The notes under the pieces are model-generated. The model saw nothing but the letters and a program-made list of their open reading frames with translations. It made no database searches and had not been told where the DNA came from. Positions 2,711 to 28,035 of a stretch of DNA of 28,253 bases are shown here, one piece after another. The stretch is from a virus. The stretch covers positions 1 to 28,253 of the IMG/VR virus record IMGVR_UViG_3300028569_000136. The stretch is one strand, 5' to 3'. Made by a program: the position numbers and the translations under genes. Position 1 is the first letter of the stretch, and the number at the start of each line of letters is the position of its first letter.

Positions 2711-2911
2711 TTATAGGGCATTTAAAGAACGTTCCTCCGCAATCTTATCCCTTTTCCATTTATCAACCGTACCAAATGTCACCAACTGATTTACTTCGTC
2801 CCTATCAAGGGAGCGAAGCAGTATCATAATTTGCCTATCAGTGCATAATTTTCTTTCATCTCTCAGTCTTTCGCAAAGACCATCAATTAATTTTTTACCG
2901 TCTGCATTCAT
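2711..2911 (-). CDS. Small hypothetical protein, 66 residues
   Basis: I do not recognise this protein. It is charged and probably all-helical, with the core LIDGLCERLRDERKLCTDRQ followed by a helical segment ending in a Trp-Lys-Arg-rich part (VDKWKRDK). No membrane segment or signal peptide is visible. It is followed by a strong terminator and sits between two other small minus-strand units, like a phage accessory gene. A 17-base sequence just before its start (2920-2936) recurs at 3018-3034 at the end of the next gene upstream. The reading frame is short, but the absence of a better frame and the terminator position support it. Confidence 0.55.
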   Translation of the reverse strand: MNADGKKLIDGLCERLRDERKLCTDRQIMILLRSLDRDEVNQLVTFGTVDKWKRDKIAEERSLNAL

Positions 2912-2919
2912 TTTGGTTG

Positions 2920-3034
2920 GGGTTAAAGGTTATTTGTTAAAAAAGCGTTTTAATGTGATTTGGCCGTGTTTATCTTGCGTTTAGAAGGACAAAGGCCGAT
3001 AAATCATATTATGGTGTGGGTTAAAGGTTATTTG
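2920..3034. repeat. 17-bp direct repeat pair (2920-2936 and 3018-3034)
   Basis: gggttaaaggttatttg occurs exactly at both places, 98 bases apart. One copy is just upstream of the 66-residue gene's start; the other spans the stop codon of the 80-residue gene. The 109-base gap between these genes (2912-3020) has no other clear feature. Confidence 0.6.
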
Positions 3035-3263
3035 CGTTTAGGAATTGTGCAAGCATCGGAATGGTGTCGGGGTTTATTTTCTCCCAATCTTTGCACCACA
3101 TTTCGGTGCTTACAAGTTCGCTTCCTTCGTAGGTCAGTTCAACGTAAAAGTTGCACTTTTGACTTTTAAACACGAAGGTAAAAAACTCATCGTGCTGATA
3201 GCTTCGTGTAATTTCAAAACCGCCGTTCAGTAGTTCCTCGTTAATTGTAATTTGTTGGCTCAT
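3021..3263 (-). CDS. Small hypothetical protein, 80 residues
   Basis: Unknown function. The protein begins MSQQITINEELLNGGFEITR and looks like a small alpha/beta fold with strands FFTFVFKSQKCNFYVELTYEG and a C-terminal helix DTIPMLAQFLNANNL. There is no membrane segment. A well-placed TAGGTTTG promoter box with an upstream TTTG precedes the ATG, which supports real expression from its own promoter. It lies downstream of the terminator that ends the 177-residue gene, so it is a separate transcription unit among small accessory genes. Confidence 0.6.
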   Translation of the reverse strand: MSQQITINEELLNGGFEITRSYQHDEFFTFVFKSQKCNFYVELTYEGSELVSTEMWCKDWEKINPDTIPMLAQFLNANNL

Positions 3264-3279
3264 GGGGTTAATGTTTCTG

Positions 3280-3308
3280 CAAACCTAAACAAAAAACCAA
3301 CACGCAAA
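3280..3308 (-). promoter_or_regulatory. Promoter for the 80-residue gene (TTTG, 17 bases, TAGGTTTG)
   Basis: Minus-strand TAGGTTTG (3280-3287) matches TAnnTTTG and a TTTG (3305-3308) lies 17 bases upstream. The box ends 16 bases before the ATG at 3263. Confidence 0.55.
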
Positions 3309-3326
3309 TGTTAATAAGTGTTAAAA

Positions 3327-3357
3327 CAAAAAGCCCCAACAAATGTCGGGGCTTTTC
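3327..3357 (-). terminator. Terminator after the 177-residue gene
   Basis: Inverted repeat AAAAGCCCC / GGGGCTTTT with a 10-base loop. It could work in both directions, since both flanks are A/T runs. It sits 24 bases past the stop at 3381 and just upstream of the next promoter. Confidence 0.7.
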
Positions 3358-3380
3358 GATACCATGAAACCAAAAAAGGC

Positions 3381-3911
3381 TTATTCAAAAATACCAGCGG
3401 GGGCGTTGTACAGAACGGGGAATTCGTTCGGTGCTGACTGCCAACCAAAGGCAACCATGTATTGCTGAACATCGTTCTCATCTGCTTTAGCTGGCTTGGC
3501 GATGCAACGTACTGGCTGCTCAACAACTCGGATTTCGTCCTCCTCATAGTAGAACCAAGCCAATTTGTACTTGCCGATTGTGTTCAGCGTTTCGTAGAAC
3601 GTGTCATTGCTGCTGTCCACGTTTGCGTCCATCACCGAAAGGGTATGGTTGAACTTGGTCAAGATGTCAGGCGTACCTCTGCGTGGGTTGGTAATGGTAA
3701 CCTCTTCCGCTTCGGGATAGTTGGCCTTGATTTCCTTGATGATTGCAACGTCGCCAGCGGCAATAGCGGCAGTCCATTCGGCGGCATCGGTGTAATCCAA
3801 AAAGGTGTAGTCATTGTCAATAACGGCAACGGCAGAAATGCCCGTTAACCGATTGATTTCGCAGACGTTTTCGCTGTAAACAGGCAAATTGTCAAAACAA
3901 GAATAGCTCAT
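3381..3911 (-). CDS. Hypothetical protein, possible virion component, 177 residues
   Basis: I choose the ATG at 3911 (MSYSCFDNLPVYSENVCEIN) over the ATG at 3947, because the -7 box TACCTTTG at 3932-3939 lies between them and a transcript would start downstream of 3947. The sequence is acidic, soluble and mixed alpha/beta: AVAVIDNDYTFLDYTDAAEW near the start, an Ala-rich helix, then FNHTLSVMDANVDSSNDTFY and KLAWFYYEEDEIRVVEQPVR. It ends close to a strong terminator and has its own promoter, so it is a monocistronic unit, probably made at high level. The extended beta content and independent strong signals would suit a major structural protein such as a tail-tube or decoration protein, but I see no diagnostic motif. 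Confidence 0.6.
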   Translation of the reverse strand: MSYSCFDNLPVYSENVCEINRLTGISAVAVIDNDYTFLDYTDAAEWTAAIAAGDVAIIKEIKANYPEAEEVTITNPRRGTPDILTKFNHTLSVMDANVDSSNDTFYETLNTIGKYKLAWFYYEEDEIRVVEQPVRCIAKPAKADENDVQQYMVAFGWQSAPNEFPVLYNAPAGIFE

Positions 3912-8139: not shown

Positions 8140-10278
8140 TTATTCGGGTTCACCTTGGCTGTTCAGGTCTTCAAAGTTCGGCGGCACTTGGTCAACTAAT
8201 CGGCCCGCCAATTGTGCCTCGGTTTCACCTGAAAGTAATTTGCGTGTCATGTCAAGAATCCACATGTTTCGCCCCTCGCCCGCATCGTTGACCTGATACT
8301 TTAATTGGCTGAAAGGCGATGCGGATATTTGCTGCCATGTAGGTAGCGGAAGGTTGCCCGCCCATTCGTTTTTTAGTAGGTAGTTGTTGCCGTCTTGAAC
8401 CTCAACCGCATCGCCGCCCGTTACGTTGGTAAAACTGATTGTAAAGTGGCTTATTTGTTTAAGGTAAAGTTTTGCAGAATAAAATGGATTGTTTTCCGAA
8501 AACTCAAGCGTTACAAATACCTTGTCAGTTGCATTAAAAATTATTGGCACTCCGCTTGATACTTGCATTTGAAAGGTTTTTAATAGTGCCCCAATTAAGT
8601 CGCCCTGTACTGCTGCATCGTAGGTATTTAAAAGCGTTACCGTTGAAAGGGTTGCATCGCCCCGCCACAATCTCATCTTTAATACCGTTGTATCTGCCAA
8701 ACTGAATCCAGTTCTATCAAGAACACAATCAATCAAGGAATAAAAGGTATAAAAACCAGTAACGGGAATTGTATATTGAAAGGTAATGTTGTTGTAATTG
8801 CCGCCGCCGTCAAACGCTGGGGCTATCGAATCGTTATCCCATTGGCAATAAAACTGATTTGAAGGTATTAAACCAGTTCCAAAAATCCCTGTTGATGTTC
8901 CGTTCCAGTTGATACCCCCAGCGGCGGTGTCTGCAATAAGCTCAAGCAAATCAAACTGAAATGCCGATGATGCCAATGGCGGCTGCTGAACATACGGCCC
9001 TGAACTATTGGCATAAAACCCAGCGGTAAAAAGGTTTTGATACTGCTTAAAAATCGTGGCGGGCAAGCCTGTAAAGTTGTTTATCAATACATTTTGGTTG
9101 CTAATGTCGCCGTTCAAATAGTATTCCCCGCTAAAATACAACGTGCCTTTTTCGTCCCAGTCAATGCCGTTGTGCTTTCGGCATATCACGTAAAACACTT
9201 CGTTATCTTTGCTGCTGTCAGGGCTCGCCAAGCCTTGCTGCGTTTGGGTGTAGTAAATTAGGTTAGTGTCCGTAATTAGAACTTGCATTCTTAGGTCAAG
9301 TTCCTTGTCAACGTTGCTTGCATAACTCATGGCAAATTGCTCCTCAAAGGTTGAAAGGAACGGCGTAAAAGCAAAATACCCGTCAAGGTCTTCGTCCTTG
9401 CTCCCAAGTCGAACGCACGAATATAGGGTATCGGCGTTTATCATTTCCTTTACAGGCGTGGCCACGTGCTGGGTGTTTATTACGCCCGATTGCCGTATAT
9501 CGTCAAAGCGTTCAACACGAAGTCGAAGGTTGCCTACGGAATCCCTTTCAATATACTGAACCAAGTTGTATAGCTTGGCAAGGTCGCTGTATAGGTACTC
9601 AAATGATATGTTTGGGCCGTATTGTTTTACGCCGTCCCGTAATGCTTCGCCGCTAAATAGGTAGCCTTGATTAAGCACGTTTTGAACTGGGTCTAAATAC
9701 TCCTGTAATGCGTCGGAATAAAAGCCGATTTGGTTGTCGGTCATGGCCGCTACAAGGAATTTCATAGCCTCGTATCTGCTCCAGCCTGTTACCGTGTTTG
9801 GAAAGTAAATAAGCGGCGGCGTTGGTAGGTTGTTCAAGACCTTGATTTGGGTTGAACTTGCAACCCCTGTAATGTTAGTGCCGTTCTTTGACCGCCCTGA
9901 GCCGATAATAAATTCAATGCTTTTGTTGTTTTCAATCTTGGCAAAGAACGAATTGTCCACAAGTTGAATTTCAACCGTTTGGGCGTATAAATCAAAGGTG
10001 CAATCGGTAACGAATACAAGGCCATGCAATACGGTTTCCCATACCCCAGCATATTCGTCAAACCTTGATAGGGTGCAAGGTACTTGGGTGTCGTAATCGG
10101 TACGCAATAGGTTTTGAAAGTAGCGGAATCCTTGGCCGCCCAATAGCACCGTGCCCGTTATCTCCTGAAGGAATGCCTTGCGTTCAATATCGTACCAAAT
10201 GTGTTCCGATAAATCGTTCAGGTCGCTTATCGTGTCGGGCGTGTAGTCAATCCCGTTTATGAATAATCTTGCGGTCAT
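8140..10278 (-). CDS. Tail-tip / baseplate-type protein, 712 residues
   Basis: A 712-residue beta-rich protein directly after the tape measure, overlapping it by four bases (ATGA), the usual place of distal-tail or tail-hub proteins. The N-terminus MTARLFINGIDYTPDTISDL reads like a strand-turn-strand entry, followed by DIERKAFLQEITGTVLLGGQ and ETVLHGLVFVTDC, which suggests the beta barrel of Dit/hub-like proteins. Later parts carry YFSGEYYLNGDISNQNVLI and many aromatic residues. The C-terminal end (NMWILDMTRKLLSGETEAQL) is helical. No enzymatic motif is visible. The tail location is inferred from gene order; the exact protein is not recognised. Confidence 0.6.
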   Translation of the reverse strand: MTARLFINGIDYTPDTISDLNDLSEHIWYDIERKAFLQEITGTVLLGGQGFRYFQNLLRTDYDTQVPCTLSRFDEYAGVWETVLHGLVFVTDCTFDLYAQTVEIQLVDNSFFAKIENNKSIEFIIGSGRSKNGTNITGVASSTQIKVLNNLPTPPLIYFPNTVTGWSRYEAMKFLVAAMTDNQIGFYSDALQEYLDPVQNVLNQGYLFSGEALRDGVKQYGPNISFEYLYSDLAKLYNLVQYIERDSVGNLRLRVERFDDIRQSGVINTQHVATPVKEMINADTLYSCVRLGSKDEDLDGYFAFTPFLSTFEEQFAMSYASNVDKELDLRMQVLITDTNLIYYTQTQQGLASPDSSKDNEVFYVICRKHNGIDWDEKGTLYFSGEYYLNGDISNQNVLINNFTGLPATIFKQYQNLFTAGFYANSSGPYVQQPPLASSAFQFDLLELIADTAAGGINWNGTSTGIFGTGLIPSNQFYCQWDNDSIAPAFDGGGNYNNITFQYTIPVTGFYTFYSLIDCVLDRTGFSLADTTVLKMRLWRGDATLSTVTLLNTYDAAVQGDLIGALLKTFQMQVSSGVPIIFNATDKVFVTLEFSENNPFYSAKLYLKQISHFTISFTNVTGGDAVEVQDGNNYLLKNEWAGNLPLPTWQQISASPFSQLKYQVNDAGEGRNMWILDMTRKLLSGETEAQLAGRLVDQVPPNFEDLNSQGEPE

Positions 10279-13200
10279 GCTCCCCTAAGTTTTTTGCGTG
10301 TTTGTTTCAGGTTTTCAAAGCCCACTCGTTGGATTGCCGTTTGTTCTTTGATTGCCCTAAATAGTCGGTAGTCATCAAAGCCGCCAGTCATTTGCAAGGC
10401 CATTGAAGCTGCAATCTTGTCGGCAAAGTCGGCCTCCATTTCACGTTGCTGCTCCATCAAAGCGGGGCTGATGAATTTCTTGTGAATGTAGCTGTCAAGG
10501 TTGCCGTCAATCCACGATTTGGCAAGGCCCGGATACTGCAAGTTCTTCCCAGTTGGGATAATCGCTTCGCCCTCGTGAGCCATTACGGGAATGGTGTCTT
10601 TGCCCCTTGGGTTGCTGCCCAACTGCAAATAGTCCGTACCCTCAAAGAACTTGTAAGGGTTGGGCTGGGCTGCGATGATGCCGATTTGCAATGCTCCGAA
10701 TGCCGCTGCCGCTGCCGCCGCCGCTGGGGCTGCTGGGGCGAATACCAAGGCTGTTGAAGTAAAGGCGTTCAATGCCGCCTGTGCTGAAGACATTATCGCT
10801 TGAATTATTTGGCTACCTCGGCTGACCTCGAACTGCTCGGCTAAGATTGCGTTCTTCTTTGCCTCGTATTCTTCCTCGATGCGAAGCCGCTCCTCGGCGG
10901 TTAGGTTTTCGTTGGCAAGCCGTTCGTTCTTTTCTTTCTCAAGGTTGTTTAATTGCAAATCAAAGTAGCCGTTCAATGCGTCCATTGCTGGGCCAAGCAC
11001 CGAATTGACCGCACCAAAGACCTCGCCCATTTTGGTTTCAATCTCGCCTACTTTTTTAAGTGCGTCTTGCTTTGCCTTTTCTTGAATTGTTATAATTACT
11101 GGAAGTTCAATCGGCTCTTCATCAGTAAATGAGCCAAGGCTTTCACGGTCTTTTTTTGCCTTACTCAATTCAGCGTCAATAAGGGCATCTACACCCGCTG
11201 ACAATGACGAATCGATTGCCTTGTCTAATGCCTCAAGGTCGCTATCGTCAACAATGCTACCCCTTACTTCTTCTAATTTGCTTTTGAATATTGCCAGTTG
11301 GTTTTCAAGTTTTGAAATCGCCTTTTGATATTCGCCCGCCTTTTCAATATCGCCAGCAAACGTGGCGTTTTCTTGTGCGGTTTTAAGTTTGCCAAGTTCT
11401 TCGTTTAGCTTTTCGATTGCCGTCTTTGCTATTTCCTTGGCCTTGGTGTCTTCCTTTGTTTTGTCGGTGTTTGCCGCTGTTGCATCGGTGCTTGCATTGG
11501 TTGCATCGGCTGCTGTCTGTGCCGTTTGCCCGTAGGTTAATAGTGAACCGCTTGCCGTTTGGGTTTTTTTGCTTAAGCCGCCCATGTCTTGGCTAAGTTC
11601 TTTGATACCTTTTTTAGACTTAACAAGCTCTACAGAGTTTTGATTTAGTGTTTCGTTTTGATATTTTGTTTCAATTGAAATTGTTGCTTGAATCTTTTTA
11701 AACTCCTTTCCAGCCTCTGCGGATTTTTGTACAGCATCTGCGTAATCAACAAATTTATCTGTATTAGAAAATATGCCTTGCCTAACTTTTTGTATTTGTT
11801 TACTTGAAAGCCCCATTGACTTGGCCACGCTTGTCATAACAGCGTCTACATCATTAAAAACTCCAATAGTTTGCTTGCCTGACTTTAATTGCTTTTCAAA
11901 TTCATCAAGCAACTTTGCATTTACCCCAGTATTTTTCCCAAGCAACTCTGTTCTAATTGAAATTGCCTGTGCCTCGGCTTCAATTTGCTTTTCCGATGCC
12001 TTTTGTGCAACCGCTTCTGCAGCCCTTAATCTAATCCTGTGTTCAAAAGAAGTGTTTGCTTTATCAAGTGCGGATTGCAATTGATTATTAAACATTGCCT
12101 CATCTTTAAGGTCTTGAATTGCAACTGGGGAAAGTTCGTTAAAACGCTTCAGCAACCTTGCCCTTTCCTCGCTTTGAGGGTTGGTGTTCTTTAATGCCTC
12201 GCCAACCAAATTAAGTTCGGCTTGTTCTTTGCGTAGGTTTTCGGATGCTTTAGCAGAAATCTCCTCTAAGTCCTTTTGCAACTCCGTAACACCGCTGAAC
12301 ATATCCAAAAGGTCAGGGCCGTATGCAATCAATGTGGCAACCGCCGTAGCGATTAAGCCGAATGGGTTTGCCATTACCGCCTTGCTCAACCCTTGAACGC
12401 CGCCAGTTGTAGCCTTTAGTATTCCAGTAAGGCCGCCCATGTCTTTTATCAACGTGCCTAACTTAAACGCACCGAAAGCCGTGGCGGCTACCGCAATAGC
12501 CTTGCCTAAATTGCGTATGGTATCGGCATCGACACCTTCCATAAAGTCCCGAAGCCCCTCGGCAGCGTCAAGCAAAACAGGCATTAAAGCGTTGCCAATT
12601 TCAATCTTCACGTCTTCAAATGCGTTCTGCATCAATTGGAATTGTGCATCTGCGGTCTGGGCTTGCTTTTCAAATGCCACGTTAACCGCATTTGCCCCCG
12701 TGGTCATGTCGGCCAAGGTAGCGGTGTATGATTCGTTAACTGTGCCGCCCAAGGCAAGGATAGCCGATGCCGTTTCGACGCTGCCAGTAACCTGTGCAAC
12801 GGTCATGCCCGATGCCTCGGCTTCCTCTTTAATTAACTTGAACGCATTTCCAAGGCCGCCCGATGTTTTGATTAAATCAATGCCGTCCTTGGCTCCCAGT
12901 TGTTTAAATATCTTGGAAAGTTCCGTACCAGGCTTTTGCATTTCGGTCAACGCCTGTTTCAATTGCGTTTGTGCTGCGGCGGCTGGGGTACCCAAGGTGG
13001 TGATTGCGGCGGTTGATGCTTGTAAGTCGGCAAGAGAAACCCCAGCGGCGGCGGCGGCTGGTGCAACTCCGCCAAATTGTGCGGTAAGTTCGGCCAATGT
13101 GGTCTTGCCCGCCTTTACGGTCTTAAATAAAATGTCGCTTATTTCATTTGCCGATAGCCCCTCAGCGGCGAATGCATTGACGGCCGATGTCATTATGTTT

Positions 13201-13703
13201 GCGGCCTCGGCAGTTGTTGCTAAACCCGCAACACCTAACTGGGCTGAACTTTCAAGAACGGCCATAGCGTCCTCGGCCGAAACCCCAGCGGAACGCACAT
13301 CGTACAAAGCTGATGACAATTGCCCAAGTTCAACAGGCGTTCGGGCTGCAAGTTCCCGTACTGATTTGCCCATCGACTCCATGCTTTCCACGTTGGTGTC
13401 AACCAGCGTGGCCACGTTGCCCATTGATTTCTCAAATGCTGATGCCGCTTGTACGGATTCACGGCCAAAATTTACAATCTCTTGAACAGCGAACGCCGCA
13501 GCAATTGACTTGCCTACGTCTTTAAGGGTTTCCTTGAACTTGTTGGCCGATGTACCGCTGTCATCTAAGGCTTTGCCTGTTTTCTTTGCGGAATCCGCAG
13601 CGGTTGACTCAACGACCTTTAGCTGCTTTTTGATTTCGTCCAGTTCCTTTTTGAACCCTGCTACTTGGGCCTCGTACTGAATTATTATTTTGTCGATTGC
13701 CAT
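10275..13703 (-). CDS. Tail tape-measure protein (TP901-like)
   Basis: A 1142-residue protein. Residues 1-50 are coiled coil (VAGFKKELDEIKKQLKVVES). Residues about 75-330 match the TP901-type tape-measure core: SAFEKSMGNVATLVDTNVES, AARTPVELGQLSSALYDVRS, VAGLATTAEAANIMTSAVNA. Hydrophobic, possibly membrane-inserting segments occur near 450-475 (FGLIATAVATLIAY) and near 985-1010 (Ala-rich). A conserved GKDTIPVMAHEGEAIIP motif lies near the C-terminus. The protein sets tail length and is ejected with DNA; at about 1.5 angstrom per residue the tail would be roughly 150-170 nm. It starts inside the frameshifted extension of the upstream chaperone, as in lambda. The middle of the gene is markedly AT-richer than its ends. 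Confidence 0.9.
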   Translation of the reverse strand: MAIDKIIIQYEAQVAGFKKELDEIKKQLKVVESTAADSAKKTGKALDDSGTSANKFKETLKDVGKSIAAAFAVQEIVNFGRESVQAASAFEKSMGNVATLVDTNVESMESMGKSVRELAARTPVELGQLSSALYDVRSAGVSAEDAMAVLESSAQLGVAGLATTAEAANIMTSAVNAFAAEGLSANEISDILFKTVKAGKTTLAELTAQFGGVAPAAAAAGVSLADLQASTAAITTLGTPAAAAQTQLKQALTEMQKPGTELSKIFKQLGAKDGIDLIKTSGGLGNAFKLIKEEAEASGMTVAQVTGSVETASAILALGGTVNESYTATLADMTTGANAVNVAFEKQAQTADAQFQLMQNAFEDVKIEIGNALMPVLLDAAEGLRDFMEGVDADTIRNLGKAIAVAATAFGAFKLGTLIKDMGGLTGILKATTGGVQGLSKAVMANPFGLIATAVATLIAYGPDLLDMFSGVTELQKDLEEISAKASENLRKEQAELNLVGEALKNTNPQSEERARLLKRFNELSPVAIQDLKDEAMFNNQLQSALDKANTSFEHRIRLRAAEAVAQKASEKQIEAEAQAISIRTELLGKNTGVNAKLLDEFEKQLKSGKQTIGVFNDVDAVMTSVAKSMGLSSKQIQKVRQGIFSNTDKFVDYADAVQKSAEAGKEFKKIQATISIETKYQNETLNQNSVELVKSKKGIKELSQDMGGLSKKTQTASGSLLTYGQTAQTAADATNASTDATAANTDKTKEDTKAKEIAKTAIEKLNEELGKLKTAQENATFAGDIEKAGEYQKAISKLENQLAIFKSKLEEVRGSIVDDSDLEALDKAIDSSLSAGVDALIDAELSKAKKDRESLGSFTDEEPIELPVIITIQEKAKQDALKKVGEIETKMGEVFGAVNSVLGPAMDALNGYFDLQLNNLEKEKNERLANENLTAEERLRIEEEYEAKKNAILAEQFEVSRGSQIIQAIMSSAQAALNAFTSTALVFAPAAPAAAAAAAAFGALQIGIIAAQPNPYKFFEGTDYLQLGSNPRGKDTIPVMAHEGEAIIPTGKNLQYPGLAKSWIDGNLDSYIHKKFISPALMEQQREMEADFADKIAASMALQMTGGFDDYRLFRAIKEQTAIQRVGFENLKQTRKKLRGA

Positions 13704-25180: not shown

Positions 25181-26284
25181 TTACGTTGTTTTAGTTTGGT
25201 ATTCGTTTATTGCTTTGAAGATTTGATAAACTACTTGTGGCACGATGGCGTTTCCATAGGCTTTTATGGATTCGTTTCGGTGTTTTGGAATGGTAATTCC
25301 AACCAGTTCGGCGGAAAACCCATCATCTCGGCTACGAATCGGGGGTTGAGTTGGGAATTGCTCCCACCCCATTCTTTGGAATTGTTCGCTATTGTCCTCG
25401 TAAGATTTTGCTGCTTGTAAGTATTGCCCTTCACTTTGTCCCCTGTATCCCTCCACTCGCCCGAAACTGGTGTCGGCAACATTTGATTGAAGTCCAAAAA
25501 GTCCATCAGCCCGTTGGGTCTGCTCGCCCCCAGTTTTCTGCTCGCCATTGTTTCCGCACCTGACTCCTTCAATTTCTTTACCCTCTCCGAATGATGTATT
25601 TCGGAGGATATTGGCGTCGGCAATAGGCTCAACCTTGCCATTTGCCGTAGGTTGCAATGAAGGTTTATTCCCTTCTCGGCATATTTCTTCTTGTCCTTCT
25701 CCCAAAGTTCGGGGTGTCGGGCTGAGTTCCAATCGAAGCTCTCCGGGGTGGGGAGTAGTTCGGAATGCAACAAACCAAACCCTATCTCGTTTGTGGGGAG
25801 CAGAGTTGACACCCGCAGCTGGAAGTACATACGGTTGTACTTCGTACCCTTCACTTTCCAAGTCAGCCTGCACCTCTTCGAAAACCAACCCTCCTGACCA
25901 ATTAACAAGGCCGAGAACGTTTTCGCCCACAACCCATTTCGGTTGAACCTCCCGAATGAGTCGACGCATTTCGGGCCACAAGTGGCGTTCATCTTCTTTT
26001 CCAAGTCGCTTCCCGGCGGCTGAGTATGGCTGGCAAGGAAAACCTCCTGTGAGAATAATGTCATCTGCGTTCCAGTTTGCTCCAAATCTTTGTGTGAGTT
26101 CATAATCTATCTTTTCAAAAGTTAGTGTTTTGATGTCATCGTGGTGGTAGGCGTTTGGCCAGTAGTAGTTAAGGGCTTGTCTGCCGAATGGGTTAATCTC
26201 GCAAGATACCACATTCTGCCAGCCAGCCCATTCCGCCGCTAACTCAAAGCCACCAATCCCACTAAAAAGGCTTATTAGTTTCAT
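25181..26284 (-). CDS. dcm: DNA (cytosine-5-)-methyltransferase
   Basis: A 367-residue C5-cytosine methyltransferase. Motif I LFSGIGGFE at 6-14, motif IV with the catalytic Cys84 in GFPCQP, motif VI ENV at 121-123, motif VIII APHKRDRVW near 162-170 and motif X GNAIVPQV near 345 are all in order, so it should be active. It methylates cytosine in a specific DNA site to protect phage DNA from host restriction or mark its own. The region between motifs VIII and X is long and low in recognised fold; it is the target-recognition part. This same stretch, and more, also encodes a second protein in the +1 frame (see 25264-26103). No restriction partner is present. Confidence 0.92.
   Translation of the reverse strand: MKLISLFSGIGGFELAAEWAGWQNVVSCEINPFGRQALNYYWPNAYHHDDIKTLTFEKIDYELTQRFGANWNADDIILTGGFPCQPYSAAGKRLGKEDERHLWPEMRRLIREVQPKWVVGENVLGLVNWSGGLVFEEVQADLESEGYEVQPYVLPAAGVNSAPHKRDRVWFVAFRTTPHPGELRLELSPTPRTLGEGQEEICREGNKPSLQPTANGKVEPIADANILRNTSFGEGKEIEGVRCGNNGEQKTGGEQTQRADGLFGLQSNVADTSFGRVEGYRGQSEGQYLQAAKSYEDNSEQFQRMGWEQFPTQPPIRSRDDGFSAELVGITIPKHRNESIKAYGNAIVPQVVYQIFKAINEYQTKTT
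25264..26103 (-). CDS. Overprinted gene in the +1 frame of the cytosine methyltransferase
   Basis: A 279-residue frame lying entirely inside the methyltransferase gene, offset by +1. It is not random: it reads MNSHKDLEQTGTQMTLFSQE at the start, LWAKTFSALLIGQEGWFSKR then a CRLTWKVKGTKYNRMYFQL block, three LLPTP or MLPTP motifs, and SQLNPRFVAEMMGFPPNW then LELPF near the end. These motifs (LTWK...LFQL, LPTP repeats, LNPxFVxxMMGFPxxW) are those of phage proteins usually found next to, or overlapping, cytosine methyltransferases. Both frames therefore look like real, constrained proteins. Its function is unknown; a methyltransferase partner or target-recognition helper is plausible. It depends on internal initiation at the ATG at 26103. 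Confidence 0.7.
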   Translation of the reverse strand: MNSHKDLEQTGTQMTLFSQEVFLASHTQPPGSDLEKKMNATCGPKCVDSFGRFNRNGLWAKTFSALLIGQEGWFSKRCRLTWKVKGTKYNRMYFQLRVSTLLPTNEIGFGLLHSELLPTPESFDWNSARHPELWEKDKKKYAEKGINLHCNLRQMARLSLLPTPISSEIHHSERVKKLKESGAETMASRKLGASRPNGLMDFLDFNQMLPTPVSGEWRDTGDKVKGNTYKQQNLTRTIANNSKEWGGSNSQLNPRFVAEMMGFPPNWLELPFQNTETNP

Positions 26285-27234: not shown

Positions 27235-28035
27235 TTAACTAAATAGCGTGTTGCCGCTTTTTTCAATTTCGGTTTTTGCATATCCATAAATTTGAATGTC
27301 TTTTTTCTTTGCAATTGCCGAATCAAGAAGCCTTTTTGCATTAACATAGAATTCCTTTTTTATTTCAAAGCCGTAGGTCTTGCGATTTAATTCTATTGCA
27401 GCAAGCAAAGTGCTTCCGCTTCCTGCACATGGGTCAATAACCACGTCCTCTTCATCGGTAAAAATTTCAATTAACCTTTTCAGCAAGCCGACTGGCTTTT
27501 GTGTCGGGTGTATTTTTTCGGTTTCGTTATCACGTTCCCAGTCGATGCAATTAAAAATCATTTTTCCTTTGTTGTTAAATTTGGGTAATTTGTCCCTGTA
27601 AAACAAAAGGCCATATTCGCAATTCCCAACTATTTTCATGTTTGCCTTTAAAACCTGAGCTGAAAAGTTTTTGCGAAATACAAGGTTAATGTACTTCATA
27701 AGGCCGTACTTTTTAGCAAGTTCAATAAGGTAAAACTGCTGCTCAAACTCGCAAAAAACAATCATGCAAGGGGATTGCCCCTTTTCTTTTGATTCTTTTT
27801 TTAGCATTGTAGAACAAAAGTGCATAAACTCGGCTGGCCTGAAATCTTTGTCGGTATCAAAAAACTCCTTTCCAGCCAATTCGCTTTCCCCGTTTTTGTT
27901 GTCGCCGTTTTTGTACCATGCTGGGTTTGAAGCATAGGCATTATTCCCAAGGTTGTAAGGTATATCGGCTATAATTAGCTGGGCCTTTGGTATTTGGTAT
28001 GTCTTAAAGTTTTGAAAATGGTCTCTGTATATCAT
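27235..28035 (-). CDS. DNA adenine/N4-cytosine methyltransferase (beta class)
   Basis: A 266-residue methyltransferase with motif order IV, X-region, I of the beta class. Motif IV is DIPY at 24-27, a variant of the usual DPPY. HPTQKP lies at 176-181 and the SAM-binding motif DPCAGSGST at 201-209. The target amino group may be N6-adenine (most likely) or N4-cytosine. The middle (GESELAGKEFFDTDKDFRPA, MIVFCEFEQQF, VLKANMKIVGNCEYGLLFYR) matches phage orphan methyltransferases I have seen in many phages. There is no restriction gene, so it is an orphan enzyme that may protect phage DNA or regulate timing. It is the first complete gene from the right end. Confidence 0.88.
   Translation of the reverse strand: MIYRDHFQNFKTYQIPKAQLIIADIPYNLGNNAYASNPAWYKNGDNKNGESELAGKEFFDTDKDFRPAEFMHFCSTMLKKESKEKGQSPCMIVFCEFEQQFYLIELAKKYGLMKYINLVFRKNFSAQVLKANMKIVGNCEYGLLFYRDKLPKFNNKGKMIFNCIDWERDNETEKIHPTQKPVGLLKRLIEIFTDEEDVVIDPCAGSGSTLLAAIELNRKTYGFEIKKEFYVNAKRLLDSAIAKKKDIQIYGYAKTEIEKSGNTLFS

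Follow-up and report, generated by a model that had tools for sequence, protein, structure and literature searches.

The stretch of viral DNA analysed here (28,253 nucleotides, IMG/VR record IMGVR_UViG_3300028569_000136, positions 1 to 28,253; called the window) carries a dcm-type C5-cytosine DNA methyltransferase gene, inside which a second frame of 279 codons stays open in the +1 register. We investigated whether this inner frame is a gene and, if so, what its product has to do with the methyltransferase that surrounds it. An earlier note, made from the letters alone, had taken it for a second, overprinted gene and proposed a partner or target-recognition subunit.

Organization of the methyltransferase locus

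The outer frame, called alpha, matched PF00145 (E 3e-40) and PHROG 363 (E 2e-67) and meets the PF00145 C5-cytosine methyltransferase criteria, with motif I, the PCQ catalytic motif IV, the ENV motif VI and motifs VIII and X. The inner frame, called beta, lies within dcm exactly where the earlier note had placed it, with an ATG start and in the +1 register (Table 1). Near the pair, at 27235-28035 on the minus strand, lies another DNA methyltransferase gene, of the N4/N6 type (PF01555). Elsewhere in the window, a 348-aa ATG frame (12439-13485, plus strand) lies antisense to the tape measure gene (10275-13703, minus strand); it had no PHROG match and is probably spurious.

Table 1 Features of the alpha/beta locus in the window and relatives that carry a stop insert
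Feature	Position	Strand	Evidence
Alpha, C5-cytosine DNA methyltransferase (dcm-type), 367 aa, motifs I-VIII and X, without motif IX	25181..26284	-	ORF, PF00145, PHROG 363, AF2, Foldseek
Beta, overprinted +1-frame gene, 279 aa, ATG start, wholly within alpha	25264..26103	-	ORF, PHROG 1008, relatives, substitution pattern
Beta residues 252-267, LNPRFVAEMMGFPPNW, motif IX-like block	25303..25350	-	Invariant columns; hhalign; +1 frame only in the 120-locus sample (among the matches listed)
Alpha residues 80-86, GGFPCQP, motif IV with catalytic Cys84	26027..26047	-	Sequence
Alpha residues 182-345, between motifs VIII and X	25250..25741	-	AF2 mostly pLDDT < 50; inner frame constrained (substitution counts)
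Alpha motif X, GNAIVPQ, past the end of beta	25235..25255	-	Alignment; confident final helix in the model
Insert loci: L082-L128 (most), L134-L137, L149, L222, L229, L251, L255, L257-L260, L262, L015/L035/L059/L078			

Coding capacity of the inner frame

An open +1 run as long as that of beta occurred in 1 of 5000 synonymous shuffles of dcm with its own codons and in 0 of 5000 with the codon usage of the other window genes. The mean open +1 run in shuffled dcm was already 95-117 codons, so that the length of the frame alone is suggestive and not a proof. Beta matched PHROG 1008 ('DNA methyltransferase'; E 2e-22, profile positions 32-285 of 329), and searches with beta gave no Pfam match and no PDB sequence match. 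Peptide patterns of beta retrieved 487 related stretches in IMG/VR, and 80 loci were kept as close viral relatives for the comparison of frames. Both frames were present in the same +1 register in all 80, with an inner identity of 32-83%, and in 4 of them the outer frame was split by one stop, lying immediately ahead of the catalytic Cys codon. Stops in the inner frame of close relatives, which the earlier note had named as a refutation, were thus absent in 80/80.

The inner gene is conserved across phages of several host phyla, and tblastn found beta in Bacteroides, Paenibacillus and Lacticaseibacillus phages. In Paenibacillus phage Redbud, it had been annotated by the depositors (REDBUD_51) as 'g50 internal gene', and a GGGAGG is present 12 nt upstream of its ATG. 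A further sample of at least 120 loci was drawn blind to the inner frame with the methyltransferase pattern GGFPCQP[YF]S..GK; the inner gene was detected by HMM in 118/120 of these (among the matches listed). Judged from the sequence evidence, and without expression data, the 279-codon +1 frame is a real protein-coding gene. The claim of a second gene was therefore borne out by the PHROG 1008 match, the open frame in 80/80 relatives and the shuffles (1/5000 and 0/5000).

Distribution of constraint between the two frames

When the window was compared with the relative L001 (83% inner identity), most changes in alpha codons 0-61, 61-176 and 340-367 fell at alpha position 3, the pattern to be expected of a constrained alpha. 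Over alpha codons 176-340, the changes at alpha positions 1, 2 and 3 were 28, 7 and 2; 30 alpha codons differed nonsynonymously and 3 synonymously, which indicates that the inner frame is constrained there and that alpha is the passenger. Substitution in the inner frame was thus depressed, as a check proposed with the earlier note required. Constraint is handed off along the locus, acting on alpha at motifs I-VIII and X and on beta at alpha residues 176-340. Family-wide, the share of amino-acid-identical alpha codon pairs with a different codon was 0.51-0.54 in the non-overlapping parts. Within the overlap it was mostly 0.28-0.49, and it fell to 0.16 at residues 305-340, a segment in which alpha and beta are both conserved; the codon pairs in this count are not independent.

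Motifs and predicted structure of alpha and beta

In the AF2 model of alpha (55 rows), confidence was mostly high for residues 1-181, apart from a drop at about 84-100 around the catalytic loop, and was high again in the last helix. Residues 182-345 exhibited mostly a pLDDT < 50 and are predicted to be mostly disordered. Foldseek matched the model to M.HhaI over about 180 of 327 residues. Alpha fails the test of a monomeric C5-methyltransferase, having no motif IX or ordered recognition domain in the same chain. The earlier statement that Dcm keeps all motifs has to be corrected accordingly: the outer protein has I-VIII and X, without motif IX and without an ordered recognition domain.

The C-terminal block of beta, LNPRFVAEMMGFPPNW, is invariant and aligns to canonical motif IX (ITPREASRLQGFPSDF and the like), without the canonical Glu and second Arg. 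When the beta profile was compared by hhalign with canonical C5-methyltransferase C-termini, the best local match fell at motif IX (pairwise P 8e-4, probability 24%), a modest support from profiles for a motif IX in beta. The block was in the +1 frame in most loci of the 120-locus sample and in frame 0 in none, and motif X was usually in frame 0 (both among the matches listed). The AF2 model of beta alone was poor (pLDDT 56), and Foldseek with this model gave no fold match; such a poor model fits an obligate partner but is no evidence for one.

On these sequence features, the locus probably codes for a split C5-methyltransferase, both subunits of which come from one stretch of DNA, with beta as the target-recognition and motif IX domain; assembly, recognition, internal initiation and an anti-restriction role are inferred. 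Alpha, with motifs I-VIII and X, would form the large catalytic domain and would carry a filler linker in place of the small one. Beta would be started by internal initiation at the ATG upstream of the catalytic Cys codon, and would supply the small domain, made of a variable part, putatively for target recognition, and the motif IX-like block. The two chains would then assemble into one active enzyme, for which there are no binding or methylation data, and this enzyme would probably protect phage DNA from host restriction. The assignment of beta as recognition subunit rests on the inner frame being constrained exactly where alpha is without small domain, and on the alignment of the beta C-terminus to motif IX. 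Among the possible readings, the partner or target-recognition subunit guessed in the earlier note has the best support, with physical association and sequence recognition not shown.

Variant arrangements and alternative explanations

The arrangement of the parts varied among relatives. In L344, the alpha frame closes directly behind motif VIII, and the beta body or recognition part, motif IX and motif X follow one another in the +1 ORF (on the reverse strand of the locus, or on the plus strand from 7022). In L324 (from 370, plus strand), several alpha-frame stops lie between motifs VIII and X and motif X is in a separate small frame-0 ORF; this is either a three-part enzyme or a decayed gene.

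Beta might be a protein of its own, such as an anti-restriction or regulatory factor, sharing its locus with alpha without being part of the enzyme. Beta alone shows no detectable fold relation, and stand-alone second copies exist; both points speak for this possibility. L054 carries a second, separate beta (3214-3756, plus strand), the ATG of which lies directly at the alpha stop (TAAATG), and likewise L055. The second beta of L054 contains a remnant of the alpha frame, and the two betas are alike at their ends and different in the centre; our reading is a duplicated specificity subunit. In L267, from a Paenibacillus bovis plasmid, a stand-alone second beta (2911-3375, plus strand) lies next to the overlapping pair. 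Homologs outside the overlap, the absence of which would have refuted the earlier note, thus exist in L054 and L267. A separate protein would nevertheless leave alpha without motif IX and without ordered small domain while beta has a motif IX-like block; moreover, 118/120 alphas of this type carry beta (among the matches listed) and the beta ORF of L344 also contains motif X. We regard this possibility as improbable.

A ribosomal frameshift joining alpha motifs I-VIII to the inner frame, giving one chain and not two, would account for the switch of the constrained frame right after motif VIII, and in L309 alpha is joined directly in-frame to the inner frame; an indel or a sequencing error in a G run may explain this join. 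Such a chain would however require two opposite shifts, motif X being back in frame 0 past the end of beta. Conservation also extends to beta residues 43-99, which lie upstream of the hand-off, and no conserved slippery site was noticed, without a systematic search. A single frameshifted chain is thus very unlikely. That the inner frame is a functionless one held open by alpha codon bias is hardly credible: conserved genes can carry long spurious frames, and the shuffled mean run of 95-117 codons is a reminder of it, but the 1/5000 and 0/5000 shuffles and the conservation across phages of several host phyla speak against it, and it is refuted by purifying selection stronger on the inner frame than on alpha over codons 176-340.

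A stop insert before the catalytic cysteine codon in relatives

In scans of IMG/VR, and of GTDB genomes in one case, 61 relative loci (44 de-duplicated; Table 1) had 6, 7 or 9 extra nucleotides directly before the alpha catalytic Cys codon. The sequence takes the form GGFP-insert-CQP, the insert being located between the window-equivalent Pro83 and Cys84; its length among the 44 was 6 nt in 36, 7 nt in 3 and 9 nt in 5. It begins with a stop in all 44 (TAA 26, TGA 15, TAG 3). No methyltransferase with a sense codon at the stop position was found by a scan with all six inserted bases free, nor one with TGG by a second scan that also allowed TGG there. The final codon of the insert was CCN in 18, CTN in 18, TCN in 8 and TTN in 0; CCN, CTN and TCN, as landing codons, are pairable by a tRNA-Pro anticodon with no more than a single G-U pair at positions 1 and 2, and the take-off Pro codon was CCG, CCA or CCT, never CCC. 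In a protein tree, rough for its few columns (95), the insert was scattered, with 26 parsimony changes, at least 8 of them forced by well-supported branches. No cultured phage with the insert was identified, all insert loci being metagenomic or from MAGs. The window has no insert and exhibited a weak fold at the site (-6.1 kcal/mol). Beta was present in all 61 insert loci and in 118/120 standard loci too (among the matches listed), so that beta and the insert have no special association. In L251 and L149, with 7-nt inserts, the likely start codon of beta overlaps the alpha stop (ATGA, GTGA), which suggests termination-reinitiation coupling to beta.

The 60 nt ending with the take-off codon folded at -25.2 kcal/mol (sd 5.2, n=43) in insert loci, compared to -9.7 kcal/mol (sd 4.6, n=120) in standard loci, and in nearly all insert loci the 3' arm of the stem ends at the Pro codon's first base or no more than 1-2 bases away from it. 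A 9-nt arm pairs at 9/9 positions in 30/43 insert loci, against 0/120 standard loci and 5/860 shuffles. In a set of 17 distinct stems with 8 or more pairs, C-G, G-C, A-U and U-A all occur at the position of the third Gly-codon base, a covariation, and 146/153 cells pair, whereas 20,000 shuffles of the 3' arms reached 138 at most. The stems were chosen by pairing, which biases this count upward; the contrast with standard loci is the fairer control. Downstream of the stop, alpha substitutions in 22 disjoint pairs were 274/147/469 at positions 1/2/3, resembling the 382/178/690 of 34 standard pairs, which argues that alpha is still translated past the stop. When the same stem and stop were sought outside methyltransferases, only apparent normal gene ends were found.

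We consider it probable, in the absence of protein data, that ribosomes make a programmed hop over the stop before the catalytic Cys codon in at least 44 distinct relatives, with the stem-loop driving; this would be a natural in-frame stop-hop, arisen or lost repeatedly, within an overprinted gene. The peptidyl-tRNA-Pro would leave CCN, skip 6, 7 or 9 nt and re-pair with CCN, CUN or UCN, driven by the stem-loop abutting the take-off codon, and the hop would give a normal GGFP-CQP in all three length classes. It perhaps sets the alpha:beta ratio. Termination is known to be slower when Pro is the C-terminal residue ahead of a stop (PMC3985003).

Readthrough would add two or three residues to the catalytic loop, and in the 7-nt loci it would leave the frame unrestored. 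Several other candidates were rejected. Selenocysteine or stop recoding at the catalytic Cys was discarded, since the stop is an extra codon ahead of Cys and may be any of the three, as was a start codon (NTG) after the stop, third-frame ORFs being mostly very short. An RF2-like +1 shift would lead into beta in 6-nt loci and into alpha in 7-nt loci, and thus cannot serve both classes. A pseudogene is not compatible with a selection on alpha past the stop that matches standard loci, and no tRNA-Pro or suppressor tRNA was found in the 32 loci scanned for a local suppressor. A wide gap scan gave mostly chance matches, and the 25-nt 'inserts' of L254, L256 and L261 were ordinary genes.

Comparison with known systems

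Annotation usually keeps one of two overlapping genes, so that in this type of methyltransferase a nearly always present subunit goes unrecorded; the alpha that is kept then passes for a complete enzyme, though another frame of the same DNA holds its putative recognition half. Through beta, the specificity of such phage enzymes becomes testable. If the hop is true, the insert relatives would be many natural, alignable versions of a bypassing signal.

Bypassing in T4 gene 60 involves a P-site tRNA before a stop, an upstream stem-loop and a landing codon directly before resumption (PMC5009743, PMC11194080). The insert relatives are alike in the stop after the take-off codon, the landing codon matched within one G-U pair and the upstream stem-loop; they differ in a gap of 6-9 nt versus 50 nt, in tRNA-Pro and in imperfectly matched landing codons. 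In-frame stop-hopping had been demonstrated on synthetic constructs, while as of 2016 'no occurences' in nature were known, and the 2016 review gives very few bypassing cases in bacteria and phages (PMC5009743). No report of a natural in-frame stop-hop was found in the later open literature, subscription papers and preprints being largely outside the search.

PHROG 1008 and REDBUD_51 represent the same inner protein, with the same overlap as in the window, but are labelled just methyltransferase or hypothetical, with no function or recognition role. The beta gene of M.EcoHK31I, reportedly described by Lee in 1995, is also said to lie inside its alpha gene in another frame. M.EcoHK31I (YGGCCR) consists of two polypeptides, the large subunit with motifs I-VIII and X and the small subunit with motif IX (PMC3404938), and the two chains of the window are alike in this, with motif IX assigned by a weak profile match. 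Unlike M.EcoHK31I, the window pair is a phage gene, and the predicted recognition domain, said to be in the large subunit of M.EcoHK31I, appears in beta. M.AquI (CYCGRG) is also a C5-methyltransferase split in two polypeptides (PMC3404938); its motif X is on the small subunit, whereas that of the window is on alpha, and the I-VIII / IX-X split of L344 is M.AquI-like.
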